Source: Romanomermis culicivorax
Taxonomy: Eukaryota > Nematoda > Enoplea > Mermithida > Mermithidae
Direction: 5' to 3'
DNA: 64,000 nt
Assembly (NCBI GenBank): GCA_963922205.1
Contig: CAWUHX010000093.1
Location: forward strand, 868,001 to 932,000
In this document: piece after piece, positions 19,701-60,095 of the stretch
How positions within the stretch are numbered: position 1 is the first letter of the stretch
Layout: every line of letters starts with the position of its first letter
The notes under the pieces: generated by a model
The model's database searches: none
What the model saw: the letters and a program-made list of their open reading frames with translations, nothing else
Told to the model about the DNA's origin: nothing
Position numbers and translations under genes: made by a program

Positions 19701-21794
19701 TATGAATGTGAAAAATTGAGAATTCGGGCCCAGAAATGCAGCAATCAGATAATTTTATGAATGTGAAGCCTGAACTTGGAACCTGTCTTCCAATATAAAA
19801 GTCATCCTCTTAGCTCGTGAATTAGACACTAAAAGTCAAGTGTCTGAAGTGTTCATTCAAGCCTTTTTTAAATACCTAAAAATGCACTGGAAGTTGGCAT
19901 TGAAGTCGGAAGTCTTCTTCTCAGTGGCCGATCACATTGCTAAACGTTTTTTGGAATGAACTCGACCGATGTATGAAAAACTTTTAAATTCAATTTGTAG
20001 TCAGCAAGATGTGACTAATAAACTTGTTATATCTTCAACTCTGCATATACTTCAGCATGCTGCCGTGATAGATGATTCTGAAGAATATTACACCGATACC
20101 TCACACGCTGCAATTTTTCCAGGATATCTTTGGATGACACGAACAATAATGCAAACAGACCCCGGAGCTTACGTTCAGTATCAGATGAATCGGCTAGCAC
20201 GTCAGCCAGTTCCGAAGAAACGGATAATAATACCTTGATGGTCACGATGAGTCCTGAGAACGTAAGATGATTTTTAAAATTACAGTACACTAATATTCTC
20301 TCGAAACGCCCTCTAATTTCATACTTCAATTTTCGGTCAGCAATCTCACCTTCTGCTGAACTTTTGTGTACATCCAATGCATGATACTCTAGAAATCTTG
20401 GCGTTGATTCATGCATCAGATTTAATTATTGTAGTCTGTTTTTTTCCAAATGCTTGTAACGCAAGAATGCTGAAAGTAAGTACGCATGCAGAATTTCGTG
20501 CCGAGATAATATCGTTGTTGACTGTATGTCAGGAATCGATTGATCGGCGGGTGTAAGCAGTGACTAAAGTCCCAACTTAACTCGATAACTCTTTTTAAAA
20601 TAACTCCTGTCCGATGCGAGAAATGTTCAAAAAAAATTTTTGCACGAATAAAAAAATAACCGCTCTGCGAGAAAAAGCTAAGCAAGTGACCAGCGCTGTG
20701 GAGCTTTGCGCCAGATTTTTAAATTTCAGCTTTCCAAACCACACCAATTGTATCACTATCTTAACTCCCAAATTTTTTCGTCGAAGCCTTCAATTCTGTC
20801 AATAACTTCAATTAACGCGGTTTTTCCTGTAATACAGTATAGTGTGCGCACGCGCGGTAATTAGACAAGCAATGTATACTTCATTTCATCTTTTTTCGGT
20901 TACAAGCATTTGAAAAAAACAGACTATAGCATTCCAGTTTATTTTATACTCGGATCAGTCTAATCAGTTTGTGATTTATGATAGTGAATTGTAAAACAAA
21001 CGGAAAGAATTTTAGACAAATAAGATAAGATTTTTTCAGTATTTTTCAATTGCCCTCCTGGTAATATGGTTCAGGATAGTTTATAAATTTTTATTGTAAT
21101 AGGACCCGTGTAGAAATACTCAACATGGATTTTACATCGACAATCTTATTTTTGGATTAGATTCCTATCTGCTTTTTATAAAATGCTTGTAAATTTAAAA
21201 ATGACAAGAAACCGCTCTCAAAGTCGTATACCCAGGTAGGATTTTTTACTCCAAAGACTCCCAAAGTTCCAGTCCAATGCGACACATTATCAAGAAATGG
21301 TAAAAATATGAAATGGTACTTGTCTTCCACCCTTAATACTTTCAAGCAATTGAAGGGAAACGAATTTTAGACACTTTTTATCATTAAATCAGTGTATAAC
21401 AAAAAATCGAAAGAATAATTATTTTCATTTATGCATGTTCTTCAATACACAATTCAGCTCGAAAATTTCAATTTTCTAAATTGTATACAAGTGTTGATTG
21501 TTTAGTAGAATTGACGACCCAAACTTCACTGCAATAAACATACAGTAAACAGGACATTTTTCTGTCTAACCGCAAAATTTGGAAAGTCACAGTTGCCGAC
21601 CAATTTTACCTATAAAAATTTTGTTTCAGGGAAATTTGAACGTGGTCGACAAGTTCAATTCCTCTAACAATATGTCGACAGCTGCCGCACCAACATTGCC
21701 GTCAGAAACTAGTACGCTAGCGAATTTCAAGGGTTCGAACGCGGCGATCAACGCCAATTGGTCAAAATCGATGGAACTTATCGAAAACGTTTGA
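1..21794 (+). CDS. MCF2L: Dbl/Dbs-family Rho guanine nucleotide exchange factor (3' 18 exons; 5' end outside window)
   Basis: Predicted exchange factor loading GTP onto Rho-family GTPases at membranes. Exons: 1-80, 3394-3484, 3595-3705, 4953-5069, 8560-8709, 10543-10782, 11214-11333, 11884-12081, 13334-13549, 14553-14705, 15359-15994, 17283-17375, 17432-17557, 18250-18462, 19329-19500, 19576-19687, 20123-20261, 21630-21794. All junctions are GT..AG and phases agree throughout, giving 1043 residues and a TGA stop. Order seen: SEC14-like end (residues 1-133), spectrin-like coiled region (134-441), Ser/Pro linker (442-528), DH (529-777), PH (778-905), Ser/Asn-rich tail. Telltale strings are [11 protein letters not shown] in the SEC14 part, [20 protein letters not shown] in the DH core and the SVWSHRK...[14 protein letters not shown] strands of PH. 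This order is that of MCF2/MCF2L (Dbs); PLEKHG4 is a relative, so the symbol is family-level. No SH3 domain is visible at the C-terminus. Confidence 0.93.
81..3393. other. Large intron of the RhoGEF gene with degraded inverted-repeat elements
   Basis: No coding signal matching the flanking protein was found. Pieces of the recurrent CTATAGTCTGTTTTT family lie at about 196-544 (nested: a second terminus at about 350) and at about 2390-2512 near ACAGACTACG. The remaining ORFs are short and show no recognisable domain. Flanking exons join in phase (2 then 1), so no exon needs to be hidden here. Confidence 0.6.
196..544. repeat. Degraded copies of the TATAGTCTG inverted-repeat family
   Basis: Starts TATAGTCTAATTTTTATGAA and ends TTTTATAAAACCAGACTAG, with an internal second terminus (ACAGTCCGTTTTTCTGAAAT) near 350. 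The inner AATCAGTTCTGTCATCG and CAATTTTTCTTCGTGAAAG blocks match the better copies at 9117, 14810 and 25607. Confidence 0.55.
5540..6050. repeat. Pyrimidine-rich (C/T) low-complexity tract
   Basis: The plus strand is dominated by T and C runs such as TTTTCGTTTTTG and CTTCTACTTTTG. This makes long hydrophobic Phe/Leu/Ser reading frames in all three forward frames, which are composition artefacts. A similar tract lies at 33330-33520 and 56200-56345. Confidence 0.7.
6355..6432. repeat. GC-rich perfect-style hairpin (CGCGGCGCCG)
   Basis: AAGGCCCTGTCATAC...GTATGACAGGGTCTTT forms a stem around a core of CGCGCGGCGCC and GGCGCCGCGCG. Arms and core are self-complementary over about 75 bp, a strong cruciform candidate. 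Confidence 0.8.
6432..6671. mobile_element. MITE-like palindrome with GCCGTACGGC units
   Basis: Opens AGGGGCCAACTATACTTCGC and closes GTGAAGTATAGCTGGCCCCT, an inverted pair of about 20 bp. Inside are several copies of the palindromic unit GCCGTACGGCGCC. No ORF. Confidence 0.65.
7617..7830. repeat. Trinucleotide microsatellite (ACT/TAC)n
   Basis: About 70 near-continuous triplets of the ACT family, with AAT and GCT variants, in an intron of the RhoGEF gene. The Thr-rich and Ser-rich reading frames over it are by-products. Confidence 0.9.
8002..8187. mobile_element. Palindromic MITE with GGCCGGTTTCATCAAAG ends
   Basis: Left end GGCCGGTTTCATCAAAGAGA and right end TCTCTTTGATGAAACCGGCC are exact reverse complements. 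Complementarity continues through the AGCTTAAG/AGCTGCAGCT-rich arms, so the 186 bp fold on themselves almost completely. No clear target duplication. Confidence 0.82.
8560..13549 (+). other. Spectrin-like helical exons of the RhoGEF
   Basis: Five phase-0 exons (8560-8709, 10543-10782, 11214-11333, 11884-12081, 13334-13549) encode about 308 charged, helical residues. The strings [20 protein letters not shown] and [20 protein letters not shown] match the spectrin-repeat region lying between SEC14 and DH in Dbs-type proteins. The aromatic/Leu spacing and lack of Pro support three-helix bundles. All donors are gtaagt, gtaaga or gtaatt. Confidence 0.85.
9117..9356. mobile_element. MITE of the TATAGTCTG family (intronic)
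   Basis: Ends TATAGTCTGTTTTTTATAAA and ...TTTCAAGAAAACATACTATA form an inverted pair. Inner blocks GACACAAATCAGTACTGCCG and CTACTTGCTTTCCACTTTCA are shared with the copies at 14810 and, reversed, at 25607. Confidence 0.8.
14810..15057. mobile_element. MITE of the TATAGTCTG family (intronic)
   Basis: Best preserved copy: TATAGTCTGTTTTTTATAAA at the left, AAAAACAGACTATA at the right, 248 bp, no ORF. Inner sequence is nearly identical to 9117-9356. Confidence 0.85.
15359..17557 (+). other. DH (RhoGEF catalytic) domain exons with long Ser/Asn-rich insertions
   Basis: Exons 15359-15994, 17283-17375 and 17432-17557. The large exon opens with a Ser/Pro linker, then [20 protein letters not shown], the first DH helix carrying the conserved Glu that contacts the GTPase. 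CR2 reads [15 protein letters not shown] and CR3 reads [18 protein letters not shown]. Compared with usual DH domains there are two extra stretches in the first exon: a Ser/Asn/Gln-rich segment between the first helix and CR2, and a Cys/Gly-rich segment before the [20 protein letters not shown] helix. The catalytic core is otherwise intact. Confidence 0.92.
15995..17282. other. Intron within the DH coding region; nothing recognised
   Basis: 1.3 kb between two phase-0 DH exons. Only short reading frames without family resemblance and no repeat with obvious ends were seen. Confidence 0.5.
18250..19500 (+). other. PH domain exons of the RhoGEF
   Basis: Two exons (18250-18462, 19329-19500) encode the pleckstrin-homology domain that follows DH in Dbl proteins and assists membrane targeting and exchange. 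Visible elements are [30 protein letters not shown], the [15 protein letters not shown] strand, [20 protein letters not shown] and the closing helix with invariant Trp ([16 protein letters not shown]). The second exon ends in phase 1 at gtaaga. Confidence 0.9.
19576..21794 (+). other. C-terminal tail exons and stop of the RhoGEF
   Basis: Exons 19576-19687 (phase 1 in, phase 2 out), 20123-20261 and 21630-21794. The tail is Ser/Thr/Asn-rich ([37 protein letters not shown]) and ends [11 protein letters not shown] then TGA. The acceptor at 19575 (ttttaag) was chosen over the closer one at 19615 because only it keeps the reading frame open. The low-complexity Ser-rich style agrees with regulatory tails of this family. 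The last exon is copied, broken, at 46289-46452. Confidence 0.82.
20430..20928. mobile_element. Longer TATAGTCTG-family element (intronic)
   Basis: GTAGTCTGTTTTTTTCCAAA at the left and GCATTTGAAAAAAACAGACT at the right pair as inverted ends around 499 bp. The interior differs from the 250-bp copies, suggesting another subfamily or an internal insertion. Confidence 0.65.
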
Positions 21795-22076
21795 GATTGA
21801 CGATCATATCGTATTTCAAATTCCCCAAATATTTCACCTACCGTCAACGGTTAATGTATATTTTTATTTCTTTGTTGTGTCCAGTATTGCGAAAAATGCA
21901 CGAGTCTCGTAAGATTTTTTTTCGGAGTTTTATTTATAAATTATACATACCATGTTTTGATAAATTTATAAAGATATGTCAAAGATGTTCCACTCGTCTG
22001 ATTTTGTAGACTAGGGTTTGATTAGATCGATCTTGTAGCTATGCCAGATGCTATTGAAGAGAAGATTGTTGTTTAA

Positions 22077-22082
22077 AATAAA
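22077..22082 (+). terminator. Polyadenylation signal of the RhoGEF gene
   Basis: AATAAA about 285 bp after the TGA stop, the first canonical signal downstream. The same hexamer is kept in the duplicated copy near 50860. Confidence 0.6.
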
Positions 22083-22870
22083 GAAAGTTTGATGAAAAAT
22101 GAAGGCGAAGAAAACACGGAATATCACTGAATGATCAAGACCGTTTTCGAAATTAAGTTCAGAAAATTCCAACTAATATTATTTTTCACGCAAAATTTTG
22201 AGACTAAGGAGCTCAAATTTTCAGAATCACTGCGGCCTAGAATTCGTAGTCACAAATGCTACAGTATCTGAGAAAAAAGGCGGCCGCGTACGCAGAGTAG
22301 CTTTGAATTTTCATGAGCATCTTTTGTCTTTCCGAGGCTCATTAAAAAAAATTGGCCATATGAGTAGCTTTGAATTGAAAATGCAAAATAAAGTGAAAAA
22401 AATTGATTTCAAATGCTTCATAGTTCGGAATACGTGTTTACTGTTTCTAGGGCAATGGAAAGACAGTGAAAAAGTCAATGTTGTTAATTTGAGTCTAATA
22501 TTTGTTGACAAAATTCCAGAATGACATACATTGAGACAGTCACAATAAACTTCGTTCGACGTAAATTGAAATATAACCCAAACCTTTGGCAGACAATTCG
22601 AAATATAAAAAATCTAAATTTGGAATAAAATTTTTTTACCTCTGTTTCAATGCTGGGAAAGGCATATCGAAATATGTAAATTTTTCGGTTCGTCGCGCTG
22701 GATTCTGTAAGGCATATTAAGTTTATATGAGTCCTTTACTTGAATATACCAGAACTTTACGATCATCCCACTCACTAGCCAAAACTAAAACGGTGGAAAA
22801 AGTACAAAAATATTTCTCAAAATGTGTCATGAACTTGACAAACTATTGTTATTCTTGAAGAATCGCGATT
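22083..22870. other. Intergenic segment shared by both duplication units
   Basis: Lies between the converging RhoGEF and vWA genes. It matches about 50865-51710 at high identity, with several small indels. No gene was recognised; reading frames here are not preserved between the two copies. Confidence 0.6.
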
Positions 22871-22880
22871 CTGAAACTAG

Positions 22881-24790
22881 GGATCTACGACAAAATGTCT
22901 CCAACAAAACGTCTCCAACAAAATATCCCCAATATATGATCCCCACACAAAATGTCTCCGTACAAAATATTCCCAACATAATGTCTCCCACAAAATATCC
23001 CCAACAAATGATCTCGGAACAAAATGTTCTCGCGCAAAATGTCTCCAGCACAAAATGTCTCCATCAAAACGTCTATTTACGAAAATATTTCCAACTTATG
23101 GTCCCCGAACAACATAGGTATTTCTGTGGTCTTATTGGGGAAACGTTTTTCGACTATTAGGAATTCAATGGATGCGGTCACTTTACACAAAAAATTATCT
23201 GGGGTGTAAACAAGCTATTATTTTGATGTGTTGGTGGAAGAAGTTTTCGACCACGGGGAATTCAATGGATGCGGTCACTTTACGAAAAAAATTATCCGGG
23301 GTGTAAACAAGCGTATTTTCGGGATTTTTTGGTAAAGGAGTTTTCGACCGCTGGGGAATTCAACAGAAGCTGTCACTTTACACAAAAATTATTCCGAGTG
23401 TAAACAAATGCATTTCTGCGATTGTTTGGGCTGAGGGGTTTTCGGCTATGGAGAATTTGAAAGATGCAGTCAAATCACACAAAAAACTATCCTGAGTGTA
23501 AACAAACGTATTGTACATCAAAGTTTACCGCCTTGAAAGTGTTGGGCGATACAGGGGGTATAGAATGTATAGCCGACGATCCGAATTTGTATAACGTGCG
23601 GGGCGATACAGGAGGCTCACTTTCCAAGAATGCCTGAACGATTGTTATCTATTTAAATTTTGAAATTTTATTACTGGCCAAAACAAACAACTCTGTGAAG
23701 GCTGGCACAGAGTATTCTTTCAATTATTTGACGCCCAGCACCCTTCAACCTGGAATTTTATTCAAGCATTACAAAGGGACCAAAGCATCAACCAAATGAA
23801 AATTGAGTAGTATGTTGCTGGTTAGCGACCACCGCCTAGCAAGCGAAAGTATAGAGTGCGGAACGAATTGTTCGTATTTTTGGTCGTTTTGATCACGCAT
23901 GGCTCGGTGCAGGGCAAAATGATGCACTCATGATTATCTAAGAGGCTTATCCCACAATTATAATTTTTTAACGTTTTTGAATATTTTTAACAAATGTAAA
24001 CAGAATGTAGAGTGACCATATCTGTTGAATTCCCAATGATCAAGAACCCTCAACCCAAAAAATCATAGAAATATATTTGTTTATACGAAGGACGATTTTT
24101 TTTGCAAAGTGACTGTGTCGATTGAATTCCCCATTGAAACTCATTCCCATAAAAATTACGGAAATAGTTTGTTTACACTCAGGATAAATTTTTGTGTGAT
24201 GTGACTGCGTCTATCGAATTCTCCATAGCCAAAAATCCCTCAGCCCAAAAATCGCAGAAATGCATTTGTTTACACTCAGGATAATTTTTGTGTAGAGTGA
24301 CCACATCAGTTGATTTCCCTGGGATTGAAAACTCCTTCCGCCAAAAAATCACGAAAATATGCTCGTTTACTTCTGGAATAATTTTTTTTGTGTAAAGTGA
24401 CCTCATTCATTGAATTCCTAACGGTCGAAAACCAATTCCATCAAAAAATCACGACAATACGCTTGTTTACACCCCAGGTAATTTTTTGTGTAAAGTATTG
24501 CGTCCATTGAATTCCCCGTGATCGAGGCCCCTTTCACCAAAAAATCACGAAAATACGTTTGTTTACACCCGGGATAACTCTTTTTGTGTAAAGTAACCGC
24601 ATCCATTGAATTCCCAGTGGTCGAAAACCCCTTGCCCAAACAAACCATGGAAATACCTTTGTTATTCGGGGACCATAAGTTGGGGATATTTTGTTGGAGA
24701 CATTTTGTGTTGGAGACATTTTGCGCGGGAACATTTTGTTCGGAGATCATTTGTTGGGGATATTTTGTTGGAGACATTTTGTCGCGACAC
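22881..24790. mobile_element. Foldback element with tandem-repeat arms and 10-bp target-site duplication
   Basis: The arms start near GACAAAATGTCTCC and consist of repeats of ACAAAATGTCTCC, ACAAAATATCCCC and CAAATGATCTCGG; the right arm is the reverse complement of the left for about 230 bp. Further in are about 95-bp units containing GGATGCGGTCACTTTACAC, running one way in the left half and the other in the right. CTGAAACTAG flanks both sides exactly (22871-22880, 24791-24800). The paralogous site near 51739-51748 has one CTGAAACTAG and no insert, so this is a bona fide insertion. No transposase is present; a 9-11-bp duplication and long arms suggest a Mutator-like or foldback type. Confidence 0.88.
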
Positions 24791-24800
24791 CTGAAACTAG

Positions 24801-26101
24801 ACACCTTTAAAAAAGGGGAGTCCTAAACCATACATATATGTTACAGAAAATATCTTCTCAGAATAAATGATTTGATGTTGGAAAACCAACGCGATCATGC
24901 ATTTAGCCATCGGATCACAAAACAACTTGAAAGTAAAAGTTATACCAGCAGAACAGTCAATATTAGGAACTAATACTCGCAGCATACTTTTCGCCAGTAA
25001 TGATAGAGTACGTTTCAAGTCTTATCCGGAAAAATTTGATTTTGAACGAAATATGTAAATTCACTGACTTTTTCGATCATGCAGAGCAAAATATGAAATT
25101 CCGATAGATATTTACAGTTTCTGATTCATTTGTAAACTGCTCACTATTGACTTTTTTCATGTCTTTTACTAATGTTCTCTGTTTTCCCTTTTGTTATGCT
25201 GTTGCAATTAATATTGCTGTTCCTATTCTTTAACGTATTTTTGCCTTGCACTGCTACTCACATGGAAAATTCTCAGAACCGAAGAAAATGCAATTTTCTA
25301 TAATTCTTTCTAATTTTATCATAAGCAAAGAAATAAATGTAATACAAACATCTCTCGTAAGAGTATTATGCTCTAGCTGTTCTTGGATCAGAACAATAAC
25401 TCTCACTGCATTACTAGATTTCAGTATCTGAACATCGTAATTAAAAGTAAGATTATAAAATGTTTCTCGATGTTCATCAATGATAACGTTATGACAATTT
25501 CATCAAGTTGCCAAACATAATATCCGCATGGAACATTACGATACTAATTAATCTTCAAGAAACGTTAAAGCTTAGTAACAATCAAATGTTATTTGAGTAA
25601 TGGCACTATAGTTTGTTTTTCTTGAAATGCATCTAAATAATGAAAGTGGAAAGCAAGTAGTATTACAGATTTTTACGATTTTCTGACAAACAATATGTCG
25701 TATAGGACTAGAAACTTGCAAGCGTATTGACCTGACCTTTGGCAATTTTTCGAGTAAAAATTTTCACAGTAACAACAGACGACAGTACTGATTTGTGTTA
25801 CTTTTCTATTTCGTTTTCTATTTGGAATTCTTTCTATTTATAAAAAACAGACTATAGACTTTTTGGAACCCCACTTTAGCCGAACCTGAATAAATAATCA
25901 TACTTATGCTTAAGCCGCGCGAAGCGCCTAAAAATTTCTCGTGGTTTTGAACTTCTAGAACGCAAATTCGGCATATCATGCACCGAACAGTTTTAATCGA
26001 AATTTCCTGAATTTTCTAGGTTTTATAAATTTTACTGATTACGACTTTGAACGCGGCACTTTTTTATCATTCACAAGCAATCCATAAAAACGAATGTTTG
26101 A
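24801..26101. other. Intergenic segment shared by both units
   Basis: Matches about 51749-52791 of unit B, apart from the MITE at 25607. No gene signal. It lies just downstream of the vWA copy A stop. Confidence 0.6.
25607..25856. mobile_element. MITE of the TATAGTCTG family (reverse orientation)
   Basis: TATAGTTTGTTTTTCTTGAA at the left and TTATAAAAAACAGACTATA at the right. The interior is the reverse complement of 9117-9356 (GTGGAAAGCAAGTAGTATTA). It appears absent from the equivalent place in the second duplication unit (about 52520), so it may have inserted after the duplication. Confidence 0.75.
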
Positions 26102-26107
26102 TTTATT
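26102..26107 (-). terminator. Polyadenylation signal of vWA gene copy A
   Basis: AATAAA on the minus strand, about 83 bp beyond the stop at 26190. The same hexamer at the same distance follows copy B (52792-52797). Confidence 0.6.
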
Positions 26108-26189
26108 GTTCACCCAGTATCCAACTATAAGTTAGAAAGCACCGACGAATATGTTAATTAGTCACGTGATGTATCGTTTACAAAATCCA

Positions 26190-29100
26190 TCAAACTTTTT
26201 TCTTGTACGATTTGGTGCCACCGCCAGTTTTCGAAGTTTGTTTCCTGGGCGGCGTCGACGATCCTTTAGCCGCCGCATTTTTGACTGCCGAACCTTTAAC
26301 CGCCGCGGCGGAAGTTTTGCCGTCGATCTTGGCGGCTAAATTTTTGCGCACTGAAGGCGTCGACGATGGTGACGCCGCTTGGTAAGTGGAGAAGAGGGGC
26401 AAATCGGCCAGAACGTTGCGTGTCTTTTCGTCCAGCGAGGCCATGTCTTGGACGGCAGGTATAGAAACGCCGGCGGCTTTCAAACGGCGTTGGAAACGTT
26501 CGGCGCTGCGTTTGCGGCTGTTCATCAAGCAGCAGAAAGCCACCATGGCCAAAATGAGAAGCAATACCATCAGACAAATGCAGATGATGTACCAGCTTTT
26601 TGTACGCTTTTCTTCTTCGGCTTTCATTACTGCAAAGACATTAGTCGTGGCATATATTTTATGCGAATTTCACTGTAAAGTAGGCCTACAGAGAAAGGGA
26701 TTGCAGCCAGATCGAATTGTCCCATCGAATTTGAAGTGGGTGACAAAAATTTGCACTGTCGTTGAAGTTAATGACAGAAAGCACTAGTTATGACATAATA
26801 TGGTGTTGGCAGAAAATCACTAAAATATGCAATAGCTCTTGCTTACCACATTTATCATTTATAGGCATATTAAGAAAAACGACTTCAGTCGGATTACTGG
26901 ATCCCAACCTTTGAGAAAGTAGTATATAACTTTACATGATCTTTGAGTAAGTATAACTACAGAAGTATGGCCGTTCGTTTATTTCAGCCGAATTATCTCG
27001 TTGGTATTTTAGTCTTACCGTGCTTATGATTCTTCAAGTCTGAGGGTATTCCGCGAAGTGCTGTCTCATTCTGTGAAATTAAAAATCTGACTACAGTAAG
27101 CTGGTATATTTCACTTTTAAAGGAGCAAGGCTCCTATCAGAAACAAGCCATCAATCCCAAACGAGTTACTGTCCAGGAAAAGCAAGCCTGATACAATTCC
27201 ATTTCAAAATTTTTCCTTTCTTGTAGAACAGTCATTTTCTCGCGGCTCATCTTGATTAGTAGCTTATAAATAAATTGTTCAACTTATTGCATAATAGCTG
27301 CAGTTTCGGAACAGCCCATCAGTTTTTTTACAGTGTTGGAAAAAAATATGACGATAGAAACATTCGGTGGGACAACCGATACACCACCTCGTTATACGGT
27401 GGGACAATTGAGAGTCCGCTCTGTCGATTTTTCATACTGCACGAAATACTATCTTGCTGACGTCAAACATACTTTTACAAGAAATTCTCAATTTCTAGCA
27501 ACGTACACTGCATAACTTCGTCACATCGTTGTTCAACCGTACAAATGAATTTTTCGCTTTTCGGACACGTTTGTTCGTTGAACAGATGATCGGGAATGGG
27601 ACGGGTCCGTGTTTGTTCGACTTTTTCGCCCTTTTTTTCGCCGCAACAAGCTTTATCCCATTGACCCCATTTGAATTCCCTGCACAATTTTTTACAAACG
27701 TCCGACGGGCACGGTACACTTTTTTTGCCCGGTTTGAAATTCTTACACGCCGGATGCTTGACGTCGTAGGCTTTCTATAAAGATTTCAGTTTTGAGAAAC
27801 CATATTTCAGTTATCTTTCTCTGGAATGCAAACACAAGTCGATAGATCAAGTTGAGTTCTATGCAATAATACGCTCCGATCCATTGGACCTTCATTCCTG
27901 AGGACATTACGGTTGATCAAATTCAAGAGGGCTGCCTTACTTCCGTTCCAAAAATGTTCCCTCTAATCAGCACCAATGAATACTCACAATTTCAATGTTT
28001 CGGACGCAATTGCCTTGTTTATCCCAACCGCAACCTGTTATTTCTTTCTCTTCGGTACTGCAGGTCCTATCGCAAACTTCGGTGACGATTTTGTTGGCCA
28101 TACGATCGTCGGTGCTGTTCTTGCGCACGGCTTCCAAAACGTTTTCGGCGCCCAACAATTTCGTTATGCCTTCGCGAGCCGGCGTCGTCAAGACCATGAA
28201 GAATTTAGCGCCCTGATCTTGCAGCCGAGTGATGGCCTCCAAGGCCTTATTCATATCATCTGAAATATTTTGTGAGAATGTTATTATAAAAGATTGTGTC
28301 GCAACTTGGGATCAGTCCCAATTCGACAACCATGGGATGATAAAAAAATTAATAAATAATTTTCAAAGCTGGTAAATATAGTTGGAAAATTTAAAATGAA
28401 ATACTAAGGAAAGAAAACAATAATTAATTGAAAAAAGGTGTTTCACGGAGTCCAAAGAAAGAATCTGGTGAAATATATATGTAAACAGAAAATGTTGTAT
28501 TCTGTGATGGAAAAAATTCAGAATGAAACCATAGGCGGCGCCATAGCGTCAACCTATAATATACTTGACCCCCAAAATTCATGCCCCCATCTAGACCCTA
28601 AACGGCAAGACCTAGAACCTTGGGTTTTATTTCATAATTTCGGACATAGGGGCGAACTATTGTTTGCCTGGTGTCATTTCGCCTCTATCTGCAAGTGGTG
28701 CTCGGCGGGGTCCCAAAAACGTTCAAAAAACGCACTTTTTAAGGGCCGCCAGTCCCACCATGCCCTACAATAGGTGTACCATATCCAAGCTCCATACTTC
28801 GGCATAAGCATGGCCTCGATACAATTATACGGTGGTCCAAAGTCCCGGAGACCGCAAAATTTGGCCAGCTTGTTATATAATACTTGTGGGTTCAAAAAAA
28901 TAATAATTTTTTGCAGGAAATGCACTGTGATCATACATGCGAATAGGGAGGGAGGAGGGCCCGGGGATTATCCCTGGGCTGGGCCTTGGGTCAGAGATTT
29001 ACTGTCGGTCAATTTTGGCCAACCAGTCTTCAGCTGTACAATCAGTGGTTGCATACATGCACACGGTCAGAGGTCCGAGGGTATAGAAAATTACCAAAAT

Positions 29101-37370: not shown

Positions 37371-37381
37371 TACTTTATCCT

Positions 37382-38511: not shown

Positions 38512-38515
38512 TTAA

Positions 38516-39382: not shown

Positions 39383-39386
39383 TTAA

Positions 39387-45590: not shown

Positions 45591-45621
45591 AGGTAGTGTC
45601 ACAGCAACCACTTCTCCAGTT

Positions 45622-45690: not shown

Positions 45691-46288
45691 CTTTTGGTAA
45701 CATAGTTCAGGATAGTCTATAAATTTTTATTGTGTAATAGGACCCATGTACAGATGCTCAAAATGGAGTTTTGCCTCGAAAATCTTATTTTTTGATTTGA
45801 TTTACATGTATCTGCTTTTTATAAAATGCTTGTCAATTTAAAAATGACAAAAAAATTAGTATTGTTCTCGAAGTCGTTTACCCAGAGTTGTTACTGTAGG
45901 ATTTTTTACCTCACAAACTTTCAAACTTCTCGTCTTATGCGGCATTAGCAAGAAATTGTAAAAATATGAAATGGTACTTGCCTTCCACCCGTAATATTTA
46001 AGAGCAATTAAAGGGAAACGAATTTTAGACACTTTTTATCAATAAATCAGTGTATAACAAAAAAATAGAAAGAATAATTATGTTCATTTATGCATGTTTT
46101 TCAATAAGCAATTCAGTTCAAAAATTTTAATTTTCTGAATTGTATACAAGTGTTGATTGTTTAATAAAATTGACGACTCAAACTTCTCTGCAATAAACGT
46201 ACAGTAAACAGGACATTTTTCTGTTTAATCGCAAAATTTGGAAAGTCACAGTTTCCGACCAAGTTTACCTATAAAAATTTTGTTTCAG

Positions 46289-46452
46289 GGAAACTTGAAC
46301 GTGGTCGAAGGGTTCAATTCCTCTAACAATATGTCGACCACTGCCGCACCACATTGCCATCTGAAACCAGTACACTAATGAATCTCAAGGGTTCGAACAT
46401 GGCGATCAACACCAATTGGTCAAAATCGATGGAACCTATTGAAAACATTTGA
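46289..46452 (+). pseudogene. Orphan, frameshifted copy of the RhoGEF last exon
   Basis: The acceptor TTTTGTTTCAG and the exon body are kept (GGAAACTTGAACGTGGTCGA; CAATTGGTCAAAATCGATGG), but one base is lost (GCACCACATTG against GCACCAACATTG at 21690), shifting the frame so that the original stop is not used. All upstream exons are missing. It came along with the segmental duplication and marks the left breakpoint inside the last intron of the parent gene. Confidence 0.9.
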
Positions 46453-48551: not shown

Positions 48552-49461
48552 GGCGTATTCCTAAAACAGCGTTTCCTAAAACAGTGTTTCCTAAAAGAGC
48601 GTTTCCTAAAAGAGCGTTTCCTAAAACAGTGGATTCCTAAAACAGTGGTTCCTAAAACAGCGGATTCCTAAAACAGCATTTCCTAAAACAGCGGATTCCT
48701 AAAACAGCGTTTCCTAAAACAGCGGATTCCTAAAAGCGTTTTCCTATTGTAGTAAAAAATTGAATGTTATTGTTATGTGCTCTCATTTTGCGCCGAATTG
48801 TTGTAATAAAAAATTGAATGTTATTGTTTTCTCATTTTGCGCCGAATTGTTGTAGTACAAAATTGAATGTTATCGTTATGTGCTCTCATTTTGCGCCGAA
48901 AACCATGCACATAGCTTTTTTGGTGTTTATTTTAAACGTTTAAGCATCTACAAACGTTTGCATTTGAAAAAACAGTTTTCTTTCAAAAGTCTACAAAAAT
49001 CTGCATTTTTTGCCCAAAAAAATAAGAAGCTACTAAAATTTTGCTTCGCATCAATTGACACTTTTTCCATTTTGAATGAAAAATAGCGAATTTCGCAATG
49101 ATTAAACCCTCATGCACTTGCATACGGATAAGACACGTCGTTGGAGAACAATTGCAAAGATGGTGGATATACGCCAATGACTACATATTTACTAAGTTAA
49201 TGGTTAAGTCAATGTTCGTTTATTATGTAACAAAAACAGACACTCTTCATTTATAAAAGCACGATCTGAGCAAAATAAACTTTTTCAACAGCGATCTAGT
49301 GTAAAGAAACTGAATGACAAATTGTGCCCATATATCGTATACTAGGAACCGCTGTTTTAGGAAAATGCTGTTTTAGGAAACGCTGTTTTAGGAATCCGCT
49401 GTTTTAGGAAACGCTGTTTTAGGAAACGCTGTTTTAGGAACTGCTGTTTTAGACCTAAACC
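48552..49461. mobile_element. Foldback element with CTAAAACAGCG tandem arms and 8-bp duplication
   Basis: The left arm (48556-48740) has about twelve units of TTCCTAAAACAGCG and TTCCTAAAACAGTGGA; the right arm (49348-49452) has about seven units of the reverse complement CGCTGTTTTAGGAA. AATTGTAG flanks both sides (48544-48551, 49462-49469), an 8-bp target duplication. The loop has three ~55-bp repeats (48746-48900: AAAATTGAATGTTATTG then CTCATTTTGCGCCGAA). No transposase. Confidence 0.82.
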
Positions 49462-49469
49462 AATTGTAG

Positions 49470-50712
49470 CCCATCTATTGGCTTAAAGTTGGGAACATTT
49501 TCAGAACACGATGTCTGACATACGTAAAGTTGCAAAAGTTGAAAGAAGTGTATGTCAAAAATCGAAAAAATCGAAAATTTTCATGTTTCGTCTTACTGTA
49601 GCTATGCGAGTTTTTATTTTCAGACGAAATGAATATCATTTTCGTTCCTAGCGCATTAAGTTACACCAAATGTGTGATTTTCAGGTAGGGTTAATTTTTC
49701 ACTTATCAAAACTCTTTGTATAAGAAGCTGAATTCTTTCGGACATTGTCTCTTAAGATTTCAGGGCATAGAGTAGACAAAGTTGGCCGATCACATTAACA
49801 GAGATAGAGATGAGTATTTAGCGAATAGTCTTTCATATGTGGGTGCCTGATACAATTTTGTTTCATGTTAAATCAAAGATGCATCCGTTTAGAGACATAA
49901 CTTTGACTATGATAATTGTGTCAAAGTAGTATGTCCATGGCTGAATCAAAAACTTTTAAAGGCGTTTTTGTTGGCTTTATCTTGTTGCCTGTTTGCATTT
50001 ACCCGTGTTACCCAGGTATTTTGCATACTCAACCAGAGGACTTGAACATTGGAGTATACAAGTGTTTTAGCCATACAATATTTTGTCAGAAATTCGGGCA
50101 AACAGGTCACCCGAATACCTAGGTAGCACCCAAGTTTCATTTTTGAAATTGACCTGGGTAGGTATATCCAGGTACCCAAAATACCTGGATACTCAGTATG
50201 AAACACGGCTGAGCATCAGCAATTTAATCCAGGCGTTCAAATTATTCGCAGATTGAGTTAGTGCAACTAATCATGGGTTTTTTGTAGTGCGTAATGACGC
50301 TTTCTCAATCACAGACATGAGTTGAAAAAAAACAAAATGACGATAATATGCCAGTCGCTCACTATTTTCCAGCTAGAGTTAGGGGCGTATATTCGGTTCA
50401 GTCCGGACTTACAATACTATATTGCTATGGGTTTACCATTTCTCCACATTTGAGTGAAGTCAACTATTAGCCTGCATGTGGTTGATACAATGTTATGGGG
50501 GTACAAAATGCACGAAGCTGCAGAATATACTTGTCCACAAACGTGAAAAATTTTTTGATGAGAAAGAATAAAAATCCAATATTGCAAAAGTGCATTTTTC
50601 AAATTTTAACTCAATTTCTCAAAAACCAGTTCGATCGTTTTTCTAGGTTGGCAACTATCCAATCAAGTATATTCTTCTCTTTTCTGTCCCATCGGGACAT
50701 TTTCTAATAAAC
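49470..50712. other. Remainder of the unit B insertion; no gene recognised
   Basis: Contains an ACCCAGGTA / TACCTGGGT inverted pair around 50010-50190 and the terminal block shared with 32700-32775. Reading frames are short and without similarity. Confidence 0.5.
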
Positions 50713-52879
50713 TAGTAAATTATACATACCATGTTTTGATAAATTTATAAAGATATGTCAAAGATGTTCCACACGTTTAATTTTGTAGACTAGGGTTTGA
50801 TTAGATCGATCTTGTAGCTGTGCCAGATGCTATTGAAGAGAAGATTGTTGTTTAAAATAAAGAAAGTTTGATGAAAAATGAAGGCGAAGAAGATACAGAA
50901 TATCATTGAAAGCGTGATCAAGACTGTTTTCGAAATTTAGTACAGAAATTTCTTACTAATATTGTTTTTTCATACATAATTTTGAAGAGCTCAACTTTTC
51001 AGCATTGCTGCGTTCTGGAAGTCGTTGTCCCAAATGATACAGTATCTGAGAAAAAAGGTTGTTTATTATTAATGAGCATCTTTTGTCTTTCTGGGGCTCA
51101 TTTGGAAAAAATGGAGCATGGGTACTTTTGAATTGAAAAATGCAAAATGAAGTAAAAAAATTTGATTTCAAATGCTTCATAATTTTGGAATACGTGTTAA
51201 CTGTTTAATGGGCAATGGAAAAACAGTGAACAAGCTAATGTTGGTGATTTTGACTGAAATATTTGTTGACAAAAGTCCTGTTTGACGTATTAACTTGACG
51301 AGGTCACAATAAACTTCGTTCGACGTGAATTGAAAAATAGCCTAAACCTTTGGCAAACAATTCGAAATATAAAAAATATAAATTCGCAATGAAATTTTTT
51401 TACCTGTTTCTATGCTGGGAAATGCATTTTAAGCTATCACTCATATCGAAATATGTAAATTTTTCAGCTCTTCGCGCTGAATCGATTATTCTTTAGGTTA
51501 CTTGACTATAGTGTGCTAATCAGTATCAGATGCCTAGTTTGTGATCTTATCGGAAAATCAAAAATTTGATGAAATATCAGTCCAAAAGTAAAAAATGCCT
51601 TTACTGTGCGTGTGATATACCACAACTGTGCGATAATCCCACTCATTAGCCAATACTAAAACGGCTGAAAAAGTACAACAATATTTCTTACAACGTGTCA
51701 TGAACTTCCCAGATTATTATTATCCTGGAAGAATTGCAATTCTGAAACTAGATACCTTTGAAAAAGGAGAGTCCTAAACCATATTGTTATGTTATACAGA
51801 AAATATTTTCTCAGAAAAAGTGGTTTGAAGTTGGACAACCAGCGCGATCATACATCCAGTCACCAGATCACAAAACAACTCGAAATTAAAATTTATACCA
51901 AAAAATTCTCTTGCTCATGAGCAGAACAGTCAACATTAGGAACAAATACTCGCACCATACTTCTCGCCAGTAATGATAGAATATCAATCTTATCGAAAAA
52001 ATTTAATTTCGAACAAAATATATAAATTCACTACCTTTTTTGATCATGCAGAGCAGAATACGAAATTCTGATATATATATTTATAGTTTCTGATTCATTT
52101 GTAAACCGCTCATTATTGACTTTTTTCATATCTCACTAATGTTCTTTGTTTTCCCTTTTGTTATGCTGCTGCAATTAATATTGTTGTTCTTATTCTTCAA
52201 TGCAGTTTTAGGCTGCACTGCTGCTCACATGGAAAATTCCCAGAACCGAAGGAGAATGCAATTTTCTTTTATTCTTCTTAATATTCCGTCATGTACAAAG
52301 TAATAAATTTTTTACAAAGCATCTCTTATAAGAGTATCATACTTTAGCTGTTCCTCGATTAGAACAATAAACCTAGCCGCAATTATTAACTCTCCGTATT
52401 TGAACATGTTATAACAATGATCAAGTTGTCAAACATAATATCAGCAGGAACATTGAAATCCTTATTAATCTTCAAGTAACGTTAAATATTAGTAACAATC
52501 AAATGTTACTGAGTAATGGCGCTAGACTTCCTGGAGGCGCACTTTAGCTGAACATAGATAAATAATGATACTAATTCGCATTAATTAAAAAACCGGCGCG
52601 AAGCACCTAAAAATTTCGAGGTTTTGAACTTTTAAAAGGCAAATTCGGCATATCATGGAATAAAAACAACCTACTAACAATTCTAATCGAAATTTCCTGA
52701 ATTTTCTAGGTTTTACAATTTTTCTAGATTGCAACTTTCAACGCGGCACTTTTTTATCATTCACAAGCAATCTATAAAAACTAATGTTTGATTTATTGTT
52801 CACCCAGTATCCAACTATAAGTTAGAAAGCACCGATGAATATATTAATTAGTCACGTGATGTATCGTTTACAAAATCCA

Positions 52880-55800
52880 TCAAACTTTTTTCTTGTACGA
52901 TTTGGTGTCACCGCCAGTTTTCGAAGCTTGTTTCCTGGGCGGCGTCGACGATCCTTTAGCCACCGCACTTTTGACCGCCGAACCTTTAGCCGCCGCGGCG
53001 GAAGTTTTGCCGTCGATCTTGGCGGCTAAATTTTTGCGCACTGAAGGCGTCGACGATGGTGACGCCGCTTGGTAAGTGGAGAAGAGGGGCAAATCGGCCA
53101 GAACGTTGCGTGTCTTTTCATCCAACGAGGCCATGTCTTGAACGGCAGGTATAGAAACGCCGGCGGCTTTCAAACGGCGTTGGAAACGTTCAGCGCTGCG
53201 TTTGCGGCTGTTCATCAAGCAGCAGAAAGCCACCATGGCCAAAATGAGAAGCAATACCATCAGACAAATGCAGATGATGTACCAGCTTTTTGTACGCTTT
53301 TCTTCTTCGGCTTTCATTACTGCAAAGAAATAAATCGTGGCATTAGTAACACAGTTATAGTCCAAAAGGCTTATGGTATAATAATCTTCAGAATGACACC
53401 TACTGTTTTAAATATTTATGCGAATTTCACTGTGAAGTAGGCCCACAGAGAAAAGAATTAGAGCCAGATCGAATTGCCCAACCAAATTTGAGGTGGGTGA
53501 CAAAAATTTGCACTGTCGTTGAAGTTAATGACAGAAAGCACTAGTTATGACATAATATGGTGTTGGCAGAAAATCACTAAAATATGCAATAGCTCTTGCT
53601 TACCACATTTATCATTTATAGGCATATTAATAAAAACGACTTCAGTCGGATCACTGGATCCCAGCCTTTGAGAAAGTAGTATATAACTTTACATGATCTT
53701 TGAGTAAGTATAACTACAGAAGTATGGCCGTTCGTTTATTTCAGCCAAATTATCTCGTTGGTATTTTAGTCTTACCGTGCTTATGATTCTTCAAGTCTGA
53801 GGGTATTCCGCGAAGTGCTGTCTCATTCTGTGAAATTAAAAATCTGACTACAGTAAGCTGGTATATTTCACTTTTAAAGGAGCAAGGCTCCTATCAGAAA
53901 CAAACAATCAATCCTAAACGAGTTATTGTCCAGGAAAAGCAAGCCTGACACAATTCCATTTCAAAATTTTTCCGTTCTTGTAGAACAGTCATTTTCTCGC
54001 GGCTCATCTTGATTAGTAGCTTATAAATAAATTGTCCAACTTATTGCATAATAGCTGCAGTTTCGGAACAGCCCATCAGTTTTTGTACAGTGTTGGAAAA
54101 AAATATGAAGATAGAAACATTCGGTTGGACAACCGATACACCACCTCGTTATACGGTGGGACAATTGATAGTCCGCTCTGTCGATTTTTCATATTGCACG
54201 AAATACTATCTTGCTGACGTCAAACATACTTTTACAAGAAATTCTCAATTTCTAGCAACGTACACTGCATAACTTCGTCACATCGTTGTTCAACCGTACA
54301 AATGAATTTCTCGCTTTTCGGACACGTTTGTTCGTTGAACAGATGATCGGGAATGGGACGGGTGCGTGTTTGTTCGACTTTTTCGCCCTTTTTTTCGCCG
54401 CAACAAGCTTTATCCCATTGACCCCATTTGAATTCCCTGCACAATTTTTTACAAACGTCCGACGGGCACGGTACAGTTTTTTTGCCCGGTTTGAAATTCT
54501 TACACGCCGGATGCTTGACGTCGTAGGCTTTCTATAAAGTTTTCAGTTTTGAGAAACCATATTTCAGTTATCTTTCTCTGGAATGCAAACACAAGTCGAT
54601 AGATCAAGTTGAGTTCTATGCAATAATACGCTCCGATCCATTGGACCTTCATTCCTGAGGACATTACGGTTGATCAAATTCAAGAGGGCTGCCTTACTTC
54701 CGTTCCAAAAACGTTCCCTCTGATCAGCACCAATGAATACTCACAATTTCAATGTTTCGGACGCAATTGCCCTGTTTATCCCAACCGCAACCTGTTATTT
54801 CTTTCTCTTCGGTACTGCAGGTCCTATCGCAAACTTCGGTGACGATTTTGTTGGCCATACGATCGTCGGTGCTGTTCTTGCGCACGGCTTCCAAAACGTT
54901 TTCGGCGCCCAACAATTTCGTTATGCCTTCGCGAGCCGGCGTCGTCAAGACCATAAAAAATTTAGCGCCCTGATCTTGCAGCCGAGTGATGGCCTCCAAG
55001 GCCTTATTCATATCATCTGAAATATTTCGTGAGAATGTTATTATAAAAGATTGTGTCGCAACTTGGCCTCCGTCTCAACTTGGGATCAGTCCCAATTCGA
55101 CGACCTTGGGATGATAAAAATTGATAAATTATTTTCAAAGCTGGTAAATGTAGTCGGAAAATTTAAAATTATATGTGTAAACAGAAAATATGTATGAATC
55201 AAACTTGTATTGTGTGATGGAAAGAACACAAAATCAAATCACTAATTCTTTGATCTTGCATCAAAGGTACAAAAAACATTATCTACAGTGGCATTTTTCT
55301 CTAACCGAATTCGATTCAAATTATGAATCTACAAGGGCGAGAATTGAAAAACAAACAATCGTGTCAAAATAAATTCTTCAGATGATTCATTTCAGTTTGA
55401 TAGTTCACATTAATGTGGAATGTTACATAAATGTGTCTCGAACTAATCGAATTTGGTTAAACGATAGCAGAAAAAGTGAAGCAAGGACAAAGGTACTGTT
55501 ATTTTCTACGCATAAACCACTGCTCAGTCAGATGGGAGAATTAGAATAAAAAAGCGAACACAGAATATCCACGACATGAAAGGATAAACTGAAAATTAAA
55601 GAAAGGAAGCAGAAACTGAAAATTTTGATAGATGAAAGCAAAACATCTTACCACCAACCTTTTTGCTGATTCTTCACTTTTTTTGTCATTTTAAAATTAG
55701 CTTGCTTTGATTTTCTCGACCGTTCAATGAATCCATTATGTGCTTTGATTTTCTTTTTTTATATTTCATTGTTTATATTTCACTCTTTATAATTTTGTAT

Positions 55801-58477
55801 TTATATTTTATATTTATATTTTATATTTATATTTTGTATTTATATTTATATTTATATTTTATATTTATATTTCATATTCATATTAAATATTCATATTAAA
55901 TATTTATATTTTATATTTATATTTTATATTTATATTTTATATTTATATTTTATATTTATATTTTATATTTATATTTTACATTTATATTTTATATTTATAT
56001 TTTATATTTATGTTTTATATTTACATTTTATATTTATATTTTATATTTATATTTTATATTTATATTTTATATTTATATTTTGTATTTATATTTATGTTTA
56101 TATTTATGTTTTATATTTATAATTTATATTCATATTTTATATTTATATTTTATATTTATATTTTATATTTATATTTTATACTTATATTTTATATTTCATT
56201 CTATTCATTGCTCATTGTCCCTCTTTTCAATTTGATTCATTATGATAATTATTTTCTGTTCTTTCGTCTCAGCATTTTTACTATGCTTTGTATTTGTATT
56301 TGTTTTTTCTATTTCTCTATTATTCAATTTATTTTAACACTCATTTCTGTTTACTTCTCTGGGATAGCGACGGGCACCAAGTTAACAAAAGTGCCTCAGT
56401 CTGGTGCCTTTAACATCGGGTGCCAAGTTGAGACGGGGCCAATGTAAGGCCGTTGCCGTATAAAGCTGGAATGTCTAACTTAGATGTGAGCAAGGGGCAA
56501 ACCAGTACAAGGTGCCATGGATTTTCACAACAAAAGGTTATGGATTGAGATACGTGGGTGTTAAAGAAAACTCGATGTTTACTCTCAATCCTGCTTTAGA
56601 TATGGCCAAGTTTAGAAAAAATCTACCAAAATTTTTGTACACGAAACCTGTATGATTCTAGGATCAACCTAGGTAATAATGTTTCCCCATAAATAACGGG
56701 GTTTTCGAAGGATAAATTGAACATACACATGAGCAATGAAGATATTTACCTTTCGGACTGAAGCTTGCGGCCACATTTCTAGTACAGAAAGAATACAAGT
56801 GTAAAGAAACTTGAGACTAACTTCAGATCAACCTTGCGTAGGACTTGCACTAAAATGAAAAATTCTGATGCAAACCTGGTTGTTCGTCGGTAATCAAAAC
56901 AACGACGACCTTTCTACTCGTTCGGCTCATCAATTGCAGATCGAGCGTGCGAATTTTATCCAAACAATCATGCAAGTTTGTCGTCCATACCGGCCACCAA
57001 GGCTTGTCCAAAGCCTGAAGATTAGTCGAAAATTGAATATAAAGTGCAACAATATCTTAGTTCAGCAAGATTCAAGATTGAGCCATAATATTTAAGAATA
57101 ATTATGTTATTTTTTCGAAGCTGATCACACTTGCTTCGAAACCTTATAAGAAGTGTCCGATCTGGAAATAGGAATCCATTTCCGAGCCCAGACACTTATT
57201 ATAAAGAATCGGAATGGGAATCCAGCGCCCCATAGCTTAGAATATTTAATTTTTGAGACGGTGGTAAATGAAATAATTTTGAAAATTTTTGAGGTATTTG
57301 AAAATTTTTGAAGTATTATTGCGGTTTTAACACATTTGAAACGACAAAAATGACAAATTAATATATACATAACAATACTCCAAACAAAAGGAAAACGAAA
57401 AAAGAAGCAGAAGATATCAAGAAAAAGCATTAACTTCAACGTGTTTAGTCGTGGCACCAAAACTTTGTTGTCCAAACATAGATAGTACCCAAAAAATGTA
57501 CGGAAATCCGATAACAAATTTCTGATAAAAAATCAAGTTACTTATATTCTGTTTTTGTTGAAATGCTTCTAAATAATAAAATTGTAAAGCAATTCCATAT
57601 TTTCAAGATTTTCAACTGAATCGTATGGCACCCAGGACGGAAAATTTGGAAGCATACACAACTAACCTTAAGTTTTTTTAGTGAAAAAATAAAAAAAAAG
57701 AATCATGCGATTTAGACAGCTGTTCTAATTTTCTTCATTTTTCAATTTAGAGGCGCTCATGCAATGATGAACAATCTATATGGACGCCTTTTTCTTGAGT
57801 TGACTGCCACAGTTAGACGAACAGAAAAAGGATTTCGGCCTACGATGCAGGTTTATTGTATGCTCACTGATTTCTGTGGATTATTTAATTTTCTGAGGCT
57901 CATTTGAAAATGGAAAGATTATACTAAGGAAGTCATTAATTCTATAGGAATTTGCTGACCATTTCATTCTCAAGTAATGAGGTAGAATGAAAACCGGTTC
58001 GCTGTAAAATGAACAGATTTCAGCAGTTATATGTAGTTATATAGCCCAATTCTTTTCACACTGTTATTTGGGTCATTATTCTGTAGTTCTAAACAGAATA
58101 AAACCTTTACTTCGAGAACCGCCTCTCTCGAAATACCCTTTTCGATGGGCACCAAGGTTTTGCAGACGCTCGAAAAAACAATGAAGCCCATGCGCAAATT
58201 TTTACCATCGATTGGGAAACCATTGATCACGCTTCTGATGAACGACCTATCCAAAACGATCGAATCAAGAACGCTGCCCGAAATGTCGACCATCATAATC
58301 AAATCGGCGATGGTCGAATTGCAACTTCCCGGCGCCTCCAAAGAAAGCACATTTTTGAATTTTTTCGTTCTGTGAGAAATAAATGAGAAAAAATTTCAAG
58401 TTTACCTTTGAAGCGGGTGCTCCATCGCGAGGAAATAAGTAGATTATTACGAATAGTATGAAGATAATTTTAGACAT
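52880..58477 (-). CDS. Membrane protein with vWA and TSP1-like domains, copy B
   Basis: Paralogue of the gene at 26190-35606. Minus-strand exons: 58477-58406, 58335-58111, 57014-56876, 55016-54745, 54531-54274, 53827-53776, 53319-52880. The vWA metal site (DISGS, Thr in TTNLHDC, LITDEQ Asp), the KWGQWDKAC part, the TM helix and the KSYKKKV end are all intact. Exons 4 and 5 are almost identical to copy A. Differences: VWTTN replaces VSSTN, LE replaces LQ, and a few tail residues differ. The acceptor of the 39-nt exon (54193-54155) reads CAAT instead of CAGT, so that exon should be skipped. Skipping keeps the frame, predicting 485 residues. The same doubt about the exon 2 acceptor applies. No stop or frameshift was found, so it looks functional. 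Confidence 0.83.
54155..54193 (-). pseudogene. Inactivated 39-nt mini-exon of copy B
   Basis: Counterpart of 27436-27398 in copy A (YEKSTERTLNCPT). The plus-strand C at the acceptor changed to T, turning the minus-strand AG into AA. The body is still open. Confidence 0.5.
55058..56450. mobile_element. Inverted-terminus element predating the duplication (intact ends in unit B)
   Basis: Left end AACTTGGCCTCCGTCTCAAC; right end CCAAGTTGAGACGGGGCCAA is its inverted partner. It lies in the intron between vWA exons 3 and 4 in both units. The interior holds the pyrimidine-rich tract and, in this copy only, a large T/A minisatellite. Same family as 5226-6735. Confidence 0.65.
55765..56203. repeat. 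TATATTTATATTT minisatellite, expanded only in unit B
   Basis: About 35 copies of the 12-bp unit TATATTTATATT and close variants. The paralogous spot in unit A (about 33357) has none of it. The Tyr/Leu/Phe/Ile-rich reading frame across it is a by-product. Confidence 0.9.
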
Positions 58478-58628
58478 TGTCGGTAAAGCGAAACGTGCGT
58501 ATAAATGTGTACTGGCGGATAGAGAGAAACGGAAAAACACGACCGCTCGTAGACTCGATGGTGGAAGTGATTGTGAACTTGATGTAAACTGATTATCACA
58601 CTTACGAAAAATTCGTAACCACCGTATC

Positions 58629-59709
58629 AAGACGGAATGTCACATTACGCTTTCCGCGTCACGCTACAGTAAAAAGAAAAAATGGACCAATCAAAATCGA
58701 GCGTGAGCCGCTCGCCCGCTTTGGAAGTGGCATATGTCAAGCGGGCACGCCGCGAGATGTGTCGCGCGTGACAACCGAAATCCCCGCTAGAAATTCTACT
58801 GTGGTTTTTCACGCGCCCGCTAGTTTAGAAATTTTTCTATCCTAGCGGGCACCGCTCGCGCCAAAATGTTAATTTTAAACCATTTTCATCGCGTTTTTTG
58901 CAAAATTATCGTTCATTCGGCGATTTTAATCGAATTTATTGCTAAAATGTATCTTTCCGATGAGTTTGAATTAAAATTCGTAAAAAAGTGCCGAATTTTT
59001 GAAATTTCGAATTTTTTTCTCAAGTTTCGACCAATTTTTTGTGCAATCTTTGTGCTTGGCGGCGGTATAAATTTCAGATATTATTTCTTTCATACCTGTA
59101 AGTGGTTCCATCAGTTGGGAGTGCAAACCCAAAATTTTGGGGTGGGGTTCCAGAATTCCCAAAATTTTGGGGTGGAGTCCCTAAAAATCCGAAAAAAGTA
59201 AAAAAAAACAAAAATTCCGAAAATTTTCTCAAAAGAAAACAAAAAAGTCACCCTGGAGTTCGGGCGTCCGATATTTGGGTATAGGGTTCCACTAAGTTAG
59301 GGGATCCAACTCCCAATTACAGGCATGTTTTTTTCATTTACCTGGTGAAATAAAGCAGAGTCGACCTTCTAAGTTCTGCACTGACCAATCTTCACAAAAA
59401 TAAAGTCAAAAATCAAAAATATATTTAATTTTTGGACAAAAAATCGAAAATTTCTTAAAATAACTTAAAACTATCATTATTTACTGAAAGAATGGATTGA
59501 ACAATTTTTTCTGGTTTAAATTACCTATTGCAACCATCAGAAAACTAAACTTCATGCAGCGAACAACACCGCCGAAATTCAGATTGAAATTTATACAGTA
59601 AACTTTAAAGATTGGTAACGATAAAGACCGCTTGCCCGCTGGGTCCTAAACTAGCGGACTAGCGGTCATCACGCGCGGTTTTGCCCGCCGCGTGAAGTGA
59701 CACCGCCTT
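58629..59709. mobile_element. 1.08 kb inverted-repeat element unique to unit B
   Basis: The left end AAGACGGAATGTCACATTAC matches the reverse complement of the right end (AAGGCGGTGTCACTTCACGC) with a 2-bp gap. Unit A is uninterrupted at this point (35756-35762). GC-rich subterminal pieces (GCTCGCCCGC, CGCGCGGTT) surround an A/T-rich core. TA flanks the element on both sides, so a Tc1/mariner-type MITE is possible. No transposase. Confidence 0.7.
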
Positions 59710-59924
59710 ACAGTGTAGTACAGTATTGAAACCAATAATCTAATCTTTTTCATGTTTTTGACGCTGATTTTGGAGATTTGATCCATTCTGCGTTTTTACA
59801 CGTCATCAAATTGCAACTTACAAAATTTAAGTTGACGATCATCCTATGGTGGTTTTTGCAGGAACAGTTTTTGCGTCGAGCAAAAAAGGTATAAAAACGT
59901 TTTTTTCCAAATAATCGAAATAGA

Positions 59925-60095
59925 GACTTGACCCCCGAGCAATGATTTGAGAAGATGACGAGGGAAAATGAGTAAGAGAGAAGAGCAAGTCGTCATGAAA
60001 ATAGAAATGACGCTATAGTTTAAGAATTTTTCCAAACAAAGAGTACTTGATTCTAAAGAAGTAACATTAAACCTTTAAGAATGCTGTCCAAGCGA
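59925..60095. repeat. Distal end of duplication unit B
   Basis: Matches 45400-45590. Beyond about 60095 similarity to unit A stops, so this marks the right limit of the duplicated segment. Confidence 0.65.

Follow-up and report, generated by a model that had tools for sequence, protein, structure and literature searches.

Interlocus gene conversion has been catalogued among human segmental duplications; in that catalogue, the mean track measures 1364 bp by one method, and GENECONV gives a median of 198 bp and a mean of 385 bp over a range of 3 bp to 15.0 kb (PMC3790853). In helq-1 mutants of Caenorhabditis elegans, tandem duplications form whose polymerase-theta junctions occasionally contain a templated insertion. 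These duplications are about 100 bp to 10 kb long, with a median of about 1 kb, and occur only rarely in the wild type; their insertions typically map to break-flanking DNA (PMC8654963). Here, we analysed a 64 kb window (positions 868001-932000 of contig C93) of the nematode Romanomermis culicivorax, whose genome comprises 359 Mb in 595 contigs. In the assembly, this window holds two adjacent, collinear units in the same orientation, A and B, each carrying a whole gene for a protein with a vWA domain. We consider it probable (about 75%) that they result from a tandem duplication with later interlocus gene conversion across exons 4-6 of the gene. As in the catalogued human cases, divergence between paralogues drops internally. 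Unlike there, only two copies are compared, in place of a quartet or population test, the flanks are about 10% diverged and the tract was delimited by a two-rate scan instead of GENECONV (PMC3790853). Similarly, the locus shares with the helq-1 duplications a tandem arrangement with a short junction insert, but its insert resembles tRNA genes located elsewhere and the event is old (PMC8654963). The locus is an ordinary and clear example of known duplicate-gene evolution.

Comparison of the window with itself, a check that the initial annotation had proposed, recovers the collinear blocks listed below with their identities in that comparison.

21045-45597, plus strand: unit A, right end inside a dispersed repeat
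45681-60095, plus strand: unit B
21045-21937 and 45681-46593, plus strand: block pair, 87%
21937-22880 and 50716-51751, plus strand: block pair, 81-85%
24791-25608 and 51742-52524, plus strand: block pair, 77%
25855-28397 and 52523-55169, plus strand: block pair, 91-96%
32847-35758 and 55253-58627, plus strand: block pair, 84-91%
35751-35849 and 59701-59800, plus strand: block pair, 91%

The claim of a tandem duplication with a complete vWA gene is therefore borne out by collinear plus-strand blocks and by one open six-exon gene per unit. The proposed unit length of about 15 kb is not: unit A now spans 24.6 kb and unit B 14.4 kb, and the alignable DNA amounts to only about 8.0 kb (8,029 bases at 92.4% identity, the dispersed repeat at the right end excluded). 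The gene models were built by hand from the sequence alone, with paralogues backing exons 2-6, and both copies contain introns.

26190-35606, minus strand: vWA gene copy A, 471 amino acids, open, five GT-AG introns; exons 35606-35535, 35463-35239, 34162-34024, 28259-27988, 27774-27507 and 26629-26190
52880-58477, minus strand: vWA gene copy B, 471 amino acids, open, five GT-AG introns; exons 58477-58406, 58335-58111, 57014-56876, 55016-54745, 54531-54264 and 53319-52880

Divergence between the copies falls sharply over the 3' half of the gene. Inside 26058-28270, 37 of 1229 non-coding sites differ (3.0%) versus 546 of 5353 outside (10.2%; Fisher p 7e-19). Two kinds of position were excluded from these counts: gap-bounded stretches with fewer than 15 aligned bases (191 of the 8,189 aligned bases), and coding positions other than four-fold degenerate sites of codons whose first two bases agree between the copies. 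Neutral divergence is lower in the tract than on both sides of it, and the tract covers non-coding as well as coding sites.

26058-28301: low-divergence tract in unit A, from exon 4 to exon 6 including both introns
52748-55058: low-divergence tract in unit B
Left of the tract: 21045-22880, 184/1723 differences; 24791-25608, 101/730; 25855-26057, 27/188
Within the tract: 26058-26189, 4/132; 26630-26740, 14/107; 26741-27506, 16/766; intron 4, 3/213
Right of the tract: 28260-28420, 9/141; 32847-34023, 99/1143; intron 2, 96/1065; intron 1, 8/70; just upstream of the gene, 8/147

The best segment in a two-rate scan is 26748-28323, with 21 differences in 1100 sites (1.9%) versus 10.0% elsewhere (log-likelihood ratio 51.7). 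This ratio was reached by none of 500 permutations at each block size of 1, 50, 100 and 200 sites; with 200-site blocks the margin is thin, the largest permuted value being 50.6. An earlier and coarser scan of the same tract gave 0 of 200 permutations. Furthermore, the constant offset of 26757 bp reported between 27475 and 28259 is real and extends further than had been claimed, from 26658 to 28301 (1644 positions), and 27475-28259 matches the corresponding stretch of B at 99% identity.

In introns 4-5, the copies disagree at 33 of 1086 sites (19 of 979 once the diverged patch 26630-26740 in intron 5 is left out), versus 212 of 2419 in the aligned introns 1-3 (p 6e-11). The divergence of introns 4-5 does not differ significantly from that at synonymous sites in exons 4-6 (10 of 217; p 0.29). 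A higher divergence of these synonymous sites appears without the patch (p 0.03) but not with it, and we did not retain it. Since introns 4-5 are no more diverged than these synonymous sites, the tract was not made by coding selection, although the protein is under purifying selection: over the whole gene, nonsynonymous divergence (Ka) is 0.0119 and synonymous divergence (Ks) 0.0456 (Ka/Ks about 0.26). Moreover, since highly diverged DNA flanks the tract on both sides, the pattern corresponds to an internal replacement, and a single unequal crossover is ruled out. Gene conversion over a tract of about 1.6-2.2 kb is therefore supported as the cause of the similarity of exons 4-6. The view that near-identical exons stand among diverged flanks fails in the 3' half, where introns are about as alike as exons, and holds unevenly in the 5' half, where exon 1 differs at 5 of 72 positions (6.9%) and exon 2 at 1 of 220 (0.5%). 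Of the two causes initially offered, selection or conversion, the second stands for exons 4-6 and the first does not.

The junction between the units contains a fragment related to tRNA genes, next to a repeat that is shared with the right end of unit B.

45399-45597, plus strand: dispersed repeat copy, stopping at the A/B junction
45609-45667, plus strand: tRNA-gene-like fragment of 59 bp (13 nt of upstream DNA and the first 46 nt of a tRNA)
59924-60245, plus strand: copy of the dispersed repeat at the right boundary of B, continuing beyond the duplication

The initial annotation had included 45400-45590 and 59925-60095 in the units. These stretches belong to the repeat, which has two further copies on the same contig, 46-60 kb upstream of the one in A, and two on contig C107. 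Since the right-end piece (45428-45584 / 59924-60092 in the self-comparison) is dispersed, it is weak evidence of homology; the A-B pair is nevertheless the most alike (84.6%, versus 74-82% with the other copies). The repeat ends at about 45597 in A and continues to 60245 in B, which makes a right breakpoint within this repeat probable. The fragment matches tRNA genes without gaps at up to 90% identity and has at least 56 matches in the genome among those listed (40 of 421 candidates scored); ARAGORN calls a tRNA-Ile or tRNA-Thr at all four matching loci scanned. No such call is made at the junction itself, and a functional tRNA there was rejected. Nearby, the Rfam match to ceN61 (E 0.12) lies under its threshold. 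A second copy of the fragment was not found within the window. It likely stems from a templated insertion or a template switch. Two of the four loci scanned carry a pair of tRNA-Thr(GGT) genes about 230 bp apart, the DNA upstream of these genes being conserved, and a similar spacing occurs on about a dozen further contigs among the fragment matches listed.

Several observations weigh against tandem duplication followed by conversion. The patch at 26630-26740 (14 of 107, 13%) is diverged although it lies within the tract; this interruption does not agree with one clean event. It accounts for the difference in intron 5 between 30/873 with the patch and 16/766 without it. Four-fold degenerate sites alone separate the tract (4/137) from the rest of the gene (4/55) little. 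Synonymous changes in exons 1-3 (4 in 98.8 sites) are lower than expected from introns 1-3, without reaching significance (p 0.05 versus a fixed 9%; p 0.14). Exon 2 has none in 51 sites (binomial p 0.008, uncorrected); beside diverged introns, this may reflect constraint, a second short tract or chance. In addition, the comparison involves two sequences only, so that no donor is assigned and no tree test is available, and the insertion of the tRNA-like fragment may postdate the duplication. Allelic haplotypes of uneven divergence can also mimic conversion tracts, and two haplotypes assembled in tandem are the weakest point of the interpretation. Under this explanation, strongly diverged haplotypes would have been placed end to end and the low-divergence tract would mark recent shared ancestry; a true duplication and such an artefact both give the layout X-U-U-Y. 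Highly heterozygous nematode genomes are indeed on record: the Mermis nigrescens report gives a heterozygosity of 6.6%, and removed haplotigs were reused for scaffolding there (PMC10989877). Since a nematode of that heterozygosity exists, unmerged haplotypes keep a small share of the probability and appear unlikely. The arguments on the other side come from the assembly: the letters of the window include no N, intron 2 occurs at full length only at A and B (40 of 1451 candidates scored), and the right flank (61500-61950, presumably KCTD-like) has one place in the genome (one match from one candidate). The duplication is also the sole collinear multi-block tandem one among 21 self-alignments longer than 400 bp in 162 kb, the junction fragment is single in the window, and older paralogues attest to earlier duplication in the family.

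Purifying selection confined to the coding exons, with flanks free to diverge, would agree with the low Ka/Ks and with an exon 2 that is nearly unchanged amid diverged introns, and it could hold for that exon. For exons 4-6, it is ruled out as the sole cause by introns 4 and 5, which are about as alike as the exons on either side; moreover, the four-fold sites of the tract evolve at the local non-coding rate and its edges lie in or beside non-coding DNA. As a general explanation, it is very improbable. The same low standing applies to a regionally reduced mutation rate, or to an unrecognised functional element across introns 4-5. Either would lower intron and synonymous divergence alike, but the sharp edges and a 13% diverged patch inside the tract speak against both. 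No Rfam family was found at the gathering score in 20000-62000, which rules out at that score a conserved RNA in the introns. In a nucleotide search at E 1e-10, introns 4-5 had no match in the paralogues, a weak test since these are old. Highly doubtful too, if marginally less so, is a split design kept by selection, in which the Cys-rich part, membrane helix and tail would be repeatedly homogenised while the ligand-binding vWA half diverges; the cluster would then yield receptors with different heads on one common base. Amino-acid changes are indeed more frequent per site in exons 1-3 (7 in 336) than in exons 4-6 (6 in 758). At two of the changed positions, directly before the invariant T of the putative metal site, A has SS and B has WT. 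However, the tail exon holds five of the six changes of exons 4-6.

Under duplication followed by conversion, a segment of at least 8 kb with one vWA gene would have been duplicated in tandem, presumably on one chromosome, with a right breakpoint probably within the dispersed repeat. The junction fragment would have entered by end joining with templated insertion or by template switching. Both copies would then have stayed open under purifying selection while large insertions or losses set them apart. Later, one or more conversion events would have homogenised about 1.6-2.2 kb over exons 4-6, while divergence would have continued in the flanks and in most of the 5' half with its vWA domain. 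If this is right, the likeness of the 3' halves is no measure of age: since the tract differs at 3.0% and its surroundings at 10.2%, estimating the age of the duplication from the non-coding tract sites would give a value about three times too low. Hence, introns should be checked before coding similarity beside diverged flanks is read as selection. Moreover, the tRNA-gene-like fragment offers one hint on how tandem duplications arise in such genomes. A literature search found nothing that joins tandem duplicates of vWA domain genes with gene conversion or concerted evolution.

As judged from their sequences, the genes are of a cell-surface adhesion type. Copy A matches the Pfam VWA family (PF00092) at 56.3 bits (cut-off 23.8, E 6.3e-15), and four of five family members match it at E 0.1 or better. 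The protein comprises a vWA domain, a Cys-rich exon and a membrane helix with a basic tail, together with a signal peptide; the signal peptide, helix and tail were recognised by eye. Exons 4-6 encode the end of the vWA domain, the Cys-rich exon, the membrane helix and the tail. The metal site of vWA domains consists of DxSxS, T and D. DISGS is found in three and DISRS in one of the four members that hold exon 2, and T87 and D118 are invariant in all five; their position suggests a role in metal binding. The Cys-rich exon (exon 5) has no Pfam match, and its resemblance to TSP1, seen by eye, gets no support from Pfam. In a profile search of solved structures, the vWA part matched collagen VI alpha 3 (E 3.2e-10), mussel proximal thread matrix protein 1 (8.2e-10), TRAP (4.8e-8) and ANTXR2 (about 0.002). 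A single-sequence search also gave TRAP-type and ANTXR2 matches, as well as a designed TIM barrel that we attribute to chance; no match in these searches extended beyond the vWA part. The combination of a vWA domain with a membrane helix also occurs in TRAP and ANTXR, and anthrax toxin receptors have an immunoglobulin-like domain after the vWA. Literature on vWA and thrombospondin type 1 domains with nematodes and transmembrane proteins yielded, in the portions consulted, apicomplexan work only.

The locus is part of a cluster: two older plus-strand paralogues lie upstream on the same contig (about 824.8-841.1 kb and 843.2-849.9 kb), both with exons 2-6 located in the same order as in A and B. 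Another paralogue occurs on contig C107 (exons 3-6 located in the 10 kb examined). No exon 1 was located in any of these three paralogues. A weak sixth match, to the tail, is present on contig C21 (39% over query positions 16-91, E 3e-7), and the members counted here set a minimum for the family size. Between exons 2 and 3 of one upstream paralogue, direct repeats of 0.9 kb (C93:825857-826760 and 834257-835160) are 98.9% alike and 8.4 kb apart; by resemblance, they are a long terminal repeat (LTR)-like pair.

Stretches present in one unit only contain various repeats.

22881-24790, 25609-25854, about 28420-32847 and 35860-45399: A-only stretches
46594-50715, about 55752-56198 and 58628-59700: B-only stretches
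25609-25854: short dispersed repeat, also found at 9118 and 14810
36528-37370, plus strand: multi-copy element with open frames, inside A-only 35860-45399
41207-42096, plus strand: repeat in A-only 35860-45399, 90-91% identical to the 0.9 kb direct repeats of the upstream paralogue
47334-47546 and 50508-50720: inverted repeats of 213 bp (87.8%) in B-only 46594-50715

The frame-bearing part of 35860-45399 has at least 111 matches in the genome (40 of 459 candidates scored) and is therefore a repeated element, probably an insertion. The repeat at 41207-42096 resembles a solo LTR. Window positions 22890-24782 contain inverted arrays with units of 14-16 bp and about 97 bp, with a related array at 30005-30609. 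An array of 33 A/T-rich units, each 13 bp long, lies in the third intron of copy B (55758-56196) and has no counterpart in A.

Two exons of neighbouring genes frame the duplication.

19329-19547: PH-domain exon of SOS1/NGEF type
61573-61890: BTB_2 exon, which we take to be KCTD-like

Elsewhere in the genome, a COX1-like frame on the 1.03 Mb contig C117 (992573-993922) is open under the invertebrate mitochondrial code, with 11 TGA codons. It may be a recent nuclear insertion or mitochondrial DNA joined onto a nuclear contig.

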